A DNA stretch of 46,708 bases from Sphingobacteriales bacterium (GTDB lineage Bacteria; Bacteroidota; Bacteroidia; Sphingobacteriales; Sphingobacteriaceae). The stretch spans positions 1-46,708 of the forward strand of contig REAS01000044.1 of NCBI GenBank assembly GCA_004294495.1, in the 5' to 3' direction. Within the stretch, counting starts at the first letter, position 1, and every line of letters begins with the position of its first letter. Below are positions 1,910-37,311 of this stretch, in pieces. Below the pieces are notes generated by a model. It was given only the letters and a program-made list of their open reading frames with translations. It was not told the origin of the DNA and searched no databases. A program made the position numbers and the translations under genes.

Positions 1910-1933
1910 AATAGTTTTTTTTATAGTATTAAC

Positions 1934-2153
1934 CTGAATTCGATTGTTGAAATATTGTTTTTTATTTTTTGAATATGATTTGGGCGTTTTAACACGCCGT
2001 CCGCTGTATCTTTTTTTCTTTGTCAATCCCCCCGACCCCCGAAGGGGGAGATTCGGCGTAAAAAAAGGATGCCGCTACCGTCGTTAACGCTTTAAAATCG
2101 TAAATAACACTGATTTTCAGCAATTTATACTGTACATTAACAATCTAACTAAG
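1934..2153. mobile_element. MITE-like element, copy 1 (TIR-bounded, non-coding)
   Basis: This 220-bp element starts CTGAATTCGATTGTT and ends AACAATCTAACTAAG, which are inverted repeats with a few mismatches. The interior is clearly homologous to 32759-32968 and 36971-37178, including CCCCCGACCCCC and GGGGGAG blocks and an AAAAAAAGGATGCC block. The flanks are AGTATTAAC (1925-1933) and GTTATTAAC (2154-2162), which match at 7 of 9 positions and look like an aged target duplication. The element sits between hemA and hemCD, 24 bp upstream of the likely hemCD start. It encodes no protein of its own. Confidence 0.8.
1982..2090 (-). ncRNA. Putative structured RNA module inside MITE copy 1
   Basis: Read on the minus strand, the module opens with GCGTT and closes with AACGCCC, which can pair. 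Inside lies a CCTTTTTTT/AAAAAAAG stem and a CCCCC-TTC-GGGGG hairpin. The same outer sequences (GCGTTA, CGG, CC-T-tract, A-tract-G, AACGCCC) frame the copies at 3527 and 25243. It resembles an abundant intergenic Bacteroidetes repeat, possibly the Rfam Flavo-1 motif, from memory. Expression is not shown by the sequence. Confidence 0.4.
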
Positions 2154-2191
2154 GTTATTAACAAAAGGCAAAATTTTAAAAGCTAAGAAAA

Positions 2192-32713: not shown

Positions 32714-32758
32714 ATTTTTTGGGATGGGATGTTTGTTTTACGTTATTACTCTTTTAAT

Positions 32759-32968
32759 CTGAGTTTGATTAATAAATACTGTTTTTGTAATGATTAGGGC
32801 GTTTTAACACGCCGTCCGCTGTATCTTTTTTTATTTGTCTATCCCCCCGACCCCCAAAGGGGGAGATTCGGCGTAAAAAAAGGATGCCGCTACCGTGGTT
32901 AACGCTTTAAAATCGTAAATAACATTGACTTACAGTAAATTATACTATACTTTAATAATCGAACTCAG
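32759..32968. mobile_element. MITE-like element, copy 2
   Basis: 210 bp, bounded by CTGAGTTTGATTAATAAA and TTTAATAATCGAACTCAG, inverted repeats that match at 16 of 18 positions. The interior closely follows copies 1 and 3. A target duplication is no longer clear (TCTTTTAAT versus GTTTTTACC, 5 of 9). The right end overlaps the 3' end of the RsmB-like gene and provides its TGA stop codon. Confidence 0.82.
32797..32905 (-). ncRNA. Putative structured RNA module inside MITE copy 2
   Basis: The same minus-strand module as at 1982-2090, with GCGTT/AACGCCC ends and a T-tract/A-tract stem. The inner hairpin reads CCCCC-TTTG-GGGG, that is, the TTC loop of copy 1 is changed while the stem is largely kept. 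It lies on the coding strand between the RsmB-like gene and rmuC. Confidence 0.4.
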
Positions 32969-34128
32969 GTTTTTACCAACCTTGCTACAAACATAGTATC
33001 GGCTTTTAAATGGTAACCTTTTATAATTTCTTGATGCTCTAAAACTAACCCAAACTGGCTTTGCAACCAATCTGTTTGGTCTTGGTTTTCTTGTTTAAAA
33101 ACCGAGCAGGTAATATAAATTAATGGTTTTCCCGGTTTTAAATAAGGTATAATTTGTGTAGCTATACGCCTTTGTAAATCGCTAAAAAACTTTATTTTAT
33201 GTTCTTCAAACTGCCAAAGCATTTCGGGTGTGCGGCCCCAAGTACCGCTACCTGTGCAGGGTGCATCAAAAATAATCCCATCAAACTCGTAATTATGCAA
33301 ATAAGGTGCAGGGTTTAAAGTTAAATCGAGTATTTTTTTCTGATAATTTCTAAGTCCTGCAGTTTTAAAACGCTCGTCTAAATTAAGTAAAATGCTTTCG
33401 CGGATATCGGATACCACCAATTTTATATCGGGTTCTAAATCGTGTAATAATAAAGTTTTTCCGCCCGATGCCGCACAACAATCCCACCATTTATCCCACT
33501 TTTGTGGCTTAAAAAATTCTCCTACAGCTTGTGATGATACATCTTGAATTTCGTAAACTGCTTTATCTGTTAAAACAGCATCTACTTTTATGCCATTGGG
33601 CAATGCTATTGTTTGTGTATCAATTATTTTGTGTGCAATATTATTTGCAACTAAAAATTTAAGCACATTTTTTTCTTCTCCTTTTTTTATCCTAATAAAT
33701 AAATCGGGTTGTATAAAAAAGGAGTTAAAAAAGGCTTCTTTATCAATTTCTAAAGGTAATTGTTGGTGTAATGGAAAAATATCTGCAATATTAAAACCTT
33801 CGAAAAGTTTTTGTATGTAATTAATTTTATCCGCCAAAGCGTACAAAAAAACACTTTCCCATTCGGGTTTAAAATGGTTTACAAACGAGTTTGGTTGGCT
33901 GTTGCAGAGCAGTTCGGCAATTAATAAACGTGTTTCAATGGGCTCATTTATTAACAATTTACCTATTCTAAAATAGTTGTAAATTAAACGGGTTGCAATG
34001 CGCCTATCGGTGCTGCCCATTTGCTTGTTTTGGCGGTAAAAGGTTGCTAAAAACCTATTTAGTGGTTGTGAAAAATCGTATTGTTCTAAAATAGTTTTAA
34101 AAGTAGCTAACTGATGAATGGCTTTCAT
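32965..34128 (-). CDS. RsmB/NOP2 family RNA (cytosine-C5) methyltransferase
   Basis: 387 aa. N-terminal helical domain resembling NusB/RsmB-N (1-125), then a class I methyltransferase: CAASGGK (218-224) binds AdoMet, D241 in VVSDIRES, and the two cysteines C291 (DAPCTGSGT) and C341 (TCSVFKQEN) that catalyse and release in m5C enzymes. It probably modifies rRNA. Its last codons run into the right terminal repeat of MITE copy 2, so the original C-terminus may have been altered by one or a few residues. The lipoprotein gene lies upstream, 4 bp away. Confidence 0.9.
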   Translation of the reverse strand: MKAIHQLATFKTILEQYDFSQPLNRFLATFYRQNKQMGSTDRRIATRLIYNYFRIGKLLINEPIETRLLIAELLCNSQPNSFVNHFKPEWESVFLYALADKINYIQKLFEGFNIADIFPLHQQLPLEIDKEAFFNSFFIQPDLFIRIKKGEEKNVLKFLVANNIAHKIIDTQTIALPNGIKVDAVLTDKAVYEIQDVSSQAVGEFFKPQKWDKWWDCCAASGGKTLLLHDLEPDIKLVVSDIRESILLNLDERFKTAGLRNYQKKILDLTLNPAPYLHNYEFDGIIFDAPCTGSGTWGRTPEMLWQFEEHKIKFFSDLQRRIATQIIPYLKPGKPLIYITCSVFKQENQDQTDWLQSQFGLVLEHQEIIKGYHLKADTMFVARLVKT

Positions 34129-36908: not shown

Positions 36909-36970
36909 CTTTTTGTTTATGGGTTTTAAAAGTTTGGGGGTGGGATTTTGTAAAACAAGGAATTAATAAG

Positions 36971-37178
36971 CTGAGTTCGATTAAAAATTTTTATTTTAGT
37001 TATGATTAGGGCGTTTTAACACGCTCTCCGCTCTATCTTTTTTTATTTATTTATCCCCCCGACCCCCGAAGGGGGAGATTCGGCGTAAAAAAAGGATGCC
37101 GCTGCTATCGTTAACGCTAGAAATAATATATAATATTGATAAACAGTAAATTATATTAATATTAACAATCTAACTCAG
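36971..37178. mobile_element. MITE-like element, copy 3, with 9-bp target duplication
   Basis: 208 bp with ends CTGAGTTCGATT and AATCTAACTCAG (11 of 12 positions inverted). Perfect 9-bp direct repeats ATTAATAAG flank it at 36962-36970 and 37179-37187, which is direct evidence of insertion by transposition. The interior is similar to copies 1 and 2. It encodes no protein and lies between guaA and the divergent SpoU gene. Confidence 0.9.
37009..37117 (-). ncRNA. Putative structured RNA module inside MITE copy 3
   Basis: The minus-strand module with GCGTT at its 5' end, AACGCCC at its 3' end, CCTTTTTTT paired with an A-tract and a CCCCC-TTC-GGGGG hairpin. It is oriented toward guaA. Confidence 0.4.
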
Positions 37179-37311
37179 ATTAATAAGCATGGTGCTAAAG
37201 CCATTTAGATAATTTAAAATACAACTATTATTATGGCATTAGTAATTTATTGCTTTAACCCTATTATCCCAACCATAAATATTTTACTTTCGAATTTAAA
37301 CGCTATGTTTT

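Follow-up and report, generated by a model that had tools for sequence, protein, structure and literature searches.

A MITE with IS982-type ends and a Flavo-1 core in the genome of a Pelobium relative

The repeat described here, found in about 45 copies in the genome of a Sphingobacteriales bacterium, is very probably an IS982-type MITE whose ends bracket a resident palindromic repeat, Flavo-1, and which would owe its amplification to an IS982 transposase. Our reading is drawn from five features of sequence: the inverted ends, a 5-bp target duplication, insertion sequences (ISs) that share the ends and encode an IS982 transposase, the Flavo-1 core and one empty site. In the mechanism that we favour, an IS982 transposase encoded elsewhere would recognize the shared ends (ACCTGAGTTCGATTA) and join the element to a staggered cut, giving rise to a 5-bp duplication of the form T-W-W-T-A. 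Flavo-1, an intergenic resident repeat of Bacteroidota, would have become bracketed by IS982 ends and then amplified along with them. We infer that an IS982 enzyme acts on the MITE copies, that Flavo-1 is an acquisition and did not belong to the ancestral IS, and that it travels as a passenger.

Results

Structure and copy number of the element

The window—the whole stretch of DNA analysed, 46,708 nucleotides long—contains three copies of the element: the one from which this study takes its coordinates (hereafter the focal copy) and two others, window copies 1 and 2 (Table 1). Across the copies of this genome the family ends are ACCTGAGTTCGATTA and TAATCGAACTCAGGT, in inverted orientation, with a consensus that starts ACCTGAG and finishes CTCAGGT. 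The focal copy departs from this consensus at the penultimate base of either end, so that its termini read AG.../...AT. Because these outer bases are mutated, the first-pass annotation had set the ends 2 bp too far in. The inverted-end repeat that it described as a 208-bp unit (36971–37178) is real, as is the kinship of the copies that it placed at 1934–2153 and 32759–32968, but each of the three extends 2 bp beyond these bounds on either side.

Table 1 Coordinates of the MITE copies, flanking duplications and Flavo-1 cores in the window
Feature	Position	Strand	Details
MITE, focal copy	36969..37180	+	212 bp; outer bases mutated at both ends
Left 5-bp target duplication, TAATA	36964..36968	+	focal copy
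Right 5-bp target duplication, TAATA	37181..37185	+	focal copy
MITE, window copy 1	1932..2155	+	224 bp; flanks TATTA (1927–1931) / TATTA (2156–2160)
MITE, window copy 2	32757..32970	+	214 bp; flanks TTTTA / TTTTA
Flavo-1 (RF01705) core, focal copy	37013..37122	-	46.9 bits; gathering score 42
Flavo-1 core, window copy 1	1986..2095	-	44 bits

The focal copy is intergenic and non-coding, lying between two genes, with no open reading frame (ORF) of 90 or more amino acids overlapping it; its DNA folds only weakly better than shuffled versions (z −1.69). Window copy 2 overlaps, at its right end, the 3′ end of an ORF on the minus strand (32965–34128).

The host belongs to the GTDB genus of Pelobium, which the NCBI taxonomy places in the Sphingobacteriaceae, and its genome is assembled as 192 contigs totalling 2.38 Mb. 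A BLAST search of this assembly with the focal copy returned 42 matches, among them the query itself and two short pieces. The 20-base end alone gave 88 matches with at most three mismatches, against 0 for a reversed control pattern; both results far exceed what chance would give. From the loci fetched we assembled about 45 two-ended copies, a number in which a few copies with poor ends are counted; the three copies in 46 kb reported at first are thus correct for the window, but make up only a small part of the genome-wide set. The element lacks a transposase gene, and 44 of the 45 two-ended copies measure 129–287 bp. The remaining one, at 338 bp, probably joins two ends that do not belong together; it was retained in the counts. 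Among the 29 of the 45 copies that have 400 or more bases on each side, none is contained in an open frame of at least 80 codons, though several overlap the edge of such a frame by up to 37 bases.

At four contig ends of the assembly the sequence switches, after GTCGTTAACC, to a common non-MITE sequence of some 50–70 bases, which is either another collapsed repeat or an assembly artefact.

The Flavo-1 core

The interior of the element corresponds to Flavo-1 (RF01705), typed in Rfam as an sRNA with its function listed as unknown, and treated in passages of PMC2864571, PMC9029176 and PMC9723704. In Rfam scans of 40 element-bearing loci, which include the three window copies, Flavo-1 reached its gathering score inside the element in 27 (17/20 and 10/20, at 43–49 bits); the other 13, window copy 2 included, scored below it. 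The counts of Flavo-1 inside elements come from Rfam scans because regular-expression flags for the core gave false positives, among them four flagged ISs without known Flavo-1.

This motif is not confined to the MITE. The genome holds at least 106 Flavo-1 matches at E ≤ 0.001, and 14 control genomes hold none. Of the 12 matches listed for this genome, 11 were fetched, and none of these has both IS982 ends. Two congeners make the same point on a larger scale: G003 has at least 107 Flavo-1 matches and 4 ends, G007 at least 119 matches and 0 ends. Since Flavo-1 is abundant where IS982 ends are not, it exists independently and the MITE carries it; in our view it is most reasonably seen as a palindromic resident repeat that IS982 ends would carry.

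Over 18 genomes of the genus, the Flavo-1 count (a lower bound, as 150 candidates per genome were scored) does not correlate with the end count (Spearman 0.06, p 0.81). We therefore rejected a link of Flavo-1 number to end number.

Two further observations concern individual loci. In seven of them, short palindromes are nested in the Flavo-1 core (for example, CTGCCTGCCGGTAGGCAAGG, or a segment with TATCCTGACAAAGGA), and one locus (L015) has a SAM riboswitch at 2711–2815 (RF00162, 77 bits).

How the ends and the core came together may be pictured in another order, in which Flavo-1 inserted into a pre-existing IS982 MITE and the composite was then amplified. This is quite conceivable, if somewhat short of an even chance, and it bears on origin only, being compatible with the mechanism that we propose. 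The nested cores count in its favour, since palindromes evidently enter palindromes in this genome; against it, we noticed no locus in this genome where the same arms stand without Flavo-1.

Another reading would make the element a functional small-RNA gene, multiplied for the usefulness of its RNA. We consider this improbable, even though RF01705 is typed as an sRNA and a table in the discovery paper describes Flavo-1 as probably RNA and not cis-regulatory (PMC2864571). The account of Flavobacterium psychrophilum in PMC9723704 has Flavo-1 matches in either sense of transcribed regions, with many outside them, and this want of a fixed orientation to transcripts is more easily reconciled with a DNA repeat than with an RNA gene, although it is no proof. 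Furthermore, IS982 ends do not need Flavo-1: among the short elements with these ends that we list from other named genomes (23, described below), 19 loci were scanned by Rfam; in none of them does Flavo-1 reach its gathering score within the element, and one match lies outside it.

Search for empty sites in sister species

For one copy (L003), the joined flanks align unbroken, across the junction, with the corresponding intergenic gap of three sister species, G011, G012 and G013 (71, 69 and 69% identity, respectively, over 441–445 columns). The continuity of these flanks means that the L003 copy is absent in all three. Nine sites were tried for empty alleles in total: this clean one, two with a bare Flavo-1 unit and six that were not comparable, namely those of the focal copy, window copy 2 and four other copies (L013, L007, L005 and L020). 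At the focal copy and window copy 2 the far-side gene is non-adjacent or without a match among the congener matches listed; these two copies may mark rearrangement junctions.

The site of window copy 1 is occupied in two sister genomes (G011, contig C116; G013, C60) by a Flavo-1 unit in the opposite orientation, lacking IS982 ends. The equivalent position in G012 (C76) and G003 (C9) is a short gap with neither paired ends nor Flavo-1, and in G007 the flanks lie on two different contigs. A Flavo-1 unit without IS982 ends is likewise found at the L010 site in G011 (C217) and G013 (C1). In these genomes the two sites therefore count neither as empty nor as filled.

Of the three comparable sites, two have bare Flavo-1 in the gap used by the MITE in a pair of sister genomes, once in the same and once in the opposite orientation, either as a shared hotspot or by chance. 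The bare unit at the window copy 1 site, found in two sister species but missing from two others, has no known mover.

Such coming and going of bare Flavo-1 (present in G011 and G013, absent from G012 and G003), together with its abundance in G007 and G003 where ends are absent or few, speaks for a reading in which Flavo-1 moves as a unit of its own and the IS982-like ends are incidental. We nonetheless hold that to be very improbable. Homology between copies extends to the IS982 ends, the target duplications are found there and the empty site of L003 closes there; moreover, Flavo-1 counts, taken as lower bounds, are uncorrelated with end counts in the 18 genomes.

Target duplication and partner insertion sequences

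We compared the left and right flanks of the 45 two-ended copies at lengths of 2–10 bases, against 1000 re-pairings of the same flanks. Five bases is the sole length that stands out, with an identity per base of 0.796 (shuffle mean 0.547, maximum 0.636) and exact duplications at 18 of the 45 copies (shuffle mean 2.3, maximum 8). Their consensus is T-W-W-T-A; the other 27 copies lack an exact 5-bp duplication. At nine bases, none of the 45 is exact and identity is at background, contradicting the 9-bp duplication of the first-pass annotation. The nine-base match of the focal copy, ATTAATAAG, resolves into TAATA plus four extra matches, of which two are bases of the element ends and two are bases of the flanks. 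Nor is it supported that window copies 1 and 2 are older by decay of their flanks, as had been supposed, because their 5-bp duplications are exact. The same signal is seen outside this genome, where elements with these ends have exact 5-bp duplications in 19 of 46 short cases (shuffle mean 2.1, maximum 7) and in 11 of 19 of IS length (shuffle mean 3.0, maximum 8).

The single-contig genome of a congener (G001) contains complete ISs with the same ends. Three copies measure 1008 bp and four measure 1034 bp; they have one ORF each, of 297 or 299 amino acids, and are flanked by duplications of TATTA, TAATA, TACTA or TATGA. Their ends are identical to those of the MITE over 15 bp, and the 5-bp duplication is common to both. 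The two G001 transposases score 272.4 and 268.8 bits against the IS982 model NF033520 (cut-off 130); the one that was also compared with Pfam matches DDE_Tnp_1_3. Members of the IS982 family (ISfinder) are about 1 kb long with one ORF of ~300 amino acids, inverted repeats and a target duplication of 3–9 bp; the congener ISs fit this family in size, single ORF, inverted repeats and short duplication. All 19 IS-length elements examined that bear these ends carry a transposase homologue, in some cases interrupted or partial. This set comprises 17 elements found by their ends alone and 2 found via the protein, and several of its members are copies of one IS in G001.

An enzyme of the IS4 or IS1 type making 9-bp duplications, as was first suggested, is scarcely credible as the mover, and is effectively ruled out as a partner: set against the one copy with a 9-bp flanking match are a duplication that is 5 bp across the family, IS982 transposase homologues in all 19 same-ended elements of IS length, IS4 and IS5 models that fall far below their cut-offs on the congener transposases (IS4 20 bits versus a cut-off of 115 for one protein) and an IS1 model for which no match to these proteins is listed.

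The genome of the focal copy has no intact IS982 transposase gene in its assembly, in which edges of the IS are found at contig ends only. Two contig ends encode, beside the same end, the C-terminal ~26 residues of an IS982 transposase (88% identical over 26 amino acids), and six contig ends have in common an identical stretch of 95–97 bp from the other edge of the IS. We infer that several near-identical IS982 copies exist in this genome and were collapsed in assembly; if so, the IS has probably moved recently. Similarity between these IS edges and the MITE stops after about 20–22 bp, which gives no support to descent of the MITE by internal deletion of this IS.

An element of 497 bp (L202, 7373–7870), one of the 23 short elements from named genomes described below, has the same ends, a TAATA duplication and 117 residues of an IS982 transposase inside. 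It is what remains of an IS982 IS, at a stage of internal deletion intermediate between IS and MITE.

The searches that the first-pass annotation had proposed turned up many further copies with direct repeats (45 two-ended, 18 with exact 5-bp duplications), full ISs with the same terminal repeats in congeners (1008 and 1034 bp) and, for L003, a clean empty site in three of three sister species. These results support what it had said of the repeat at first: that it resembles a MITE, codes for nothing and depends on a transposase from elsewhere.

The same ends in other Bacteroidota

In named genomes, a scan for exact matches to the 19-base end gave at least 116 stretches. Of the 116 listed, 33 have a second end with which the first can be paired, many of the others lie at contig ends, and 24 contain an IS982 transposase match. 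Among these listed matches, 23 of the 33 paired elements are short (<600 bp), and the interiors of these 23 differ. Folding better than shuffles (z ≤ −2.0) was seen for 15 of the 23 short elements listed versus 5 of 44 same-length flanking windows, using 60 shuffles for elements and 50 for flanking windows; the Fisher p of 1e-5 is too good, because some of the 23 elements are related to each other. The same IS982 ends enclose different interiors in other Bacteroidota, and many of these interiors are palindromic.

Two such interiors were searched in their own genomes. The one from Pelobium manganitolerans has 21 matches, 7 with both ends, 1 with one end and 13 with none. The one from Pedobacter sp. 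PF22-3 has 44 matches, and the 30 loci fetched comprise 13 with both ends, 6 with one and 11 with none. Some of the end-less interiors in these two genomes may be decayed MITEs.

A broader idea, which we put forward tentatively and think less likely than not, is that IS982 ends in Bacteroidota repeatedly package host-abundant palindromes into new MITEs: Flavo-1 here, the GGGCTAAAGCCC-type in Pelobium manganitolerans and the GTCATGCTGA-type in Pedobacter. Were this true, 'conserved RNA motifs' such as Flavo-1 would be spread partly by DNA transposition, and the hairpin core may be positively selected rather than inert, for bringing the ends together or for blocking read-through.

Discussion

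With IS982 as its probable source of transposase, an unexplained repeat becomes a transposon family that can be delimited and assigned a partner enzyme. The Flavo-1 core gives the family a wider bearing: at least 27 copies at or above the Rfam gathering score sit inside a DNA transposon in this genome, which is reason to doubt that every Flavo-1 match is an RNA gene. The presence of the same IS982 ends around different palindromes also offers a testable idea on the origin of MITEs and the spread of palindromic repeats in bacteria. The literature searched, which covered few subscription papers, did not connect Flavo-1 with a MITE or describe it as cargo.

IS982-derived MITEs are already known, from Cardinium. 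MITECca01, the counterpart of ISCca4 (IS982 family) in Cardinium cOegib, is ~240 bp long, gene-less and present in 169 copies (PMC9769881). By description it resembles the present MITE in its inverted repeats, which are those of an IS982-family IS, in its high copy number and in having a host among the Bacteroidota, and it lies mostly in intergenic regions or in other mobile elements. The two differ in what they retain of the parent, MITECca01 keeping a short stretch of its parental IS by the left repeat whereas the present MITE shares only its ~20-bp ends with the IS. They also differ in cargo, Flavo-1 forming the interior here and going unmentioned for MITECca01 in the relevant passages of PMC9769881.

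The MITE with a minisatellite described for Porphyromonas gingivalis in PMC4596501 is likewise a Bacteroidota MITE with a repeat inside; it is a different element, however, and its repeat is, in that description, a tandem one rather than a palindromic Rfam motif. The closest relatives by their ends are the IS982-family ISs of congeners, with which the present MITE has 15-bp ends and a 5-bp duplication in common; they are 1008–1034 bp long and encode a transposase, whereas the MITE is about 130–290 bp long and does not. Rfam, for its part, models the Flavo-1 hairpin core alone (RF01705), as an sRNA, whereas the core described here lies inside a DNA transposon that has ends and duplications of its own.
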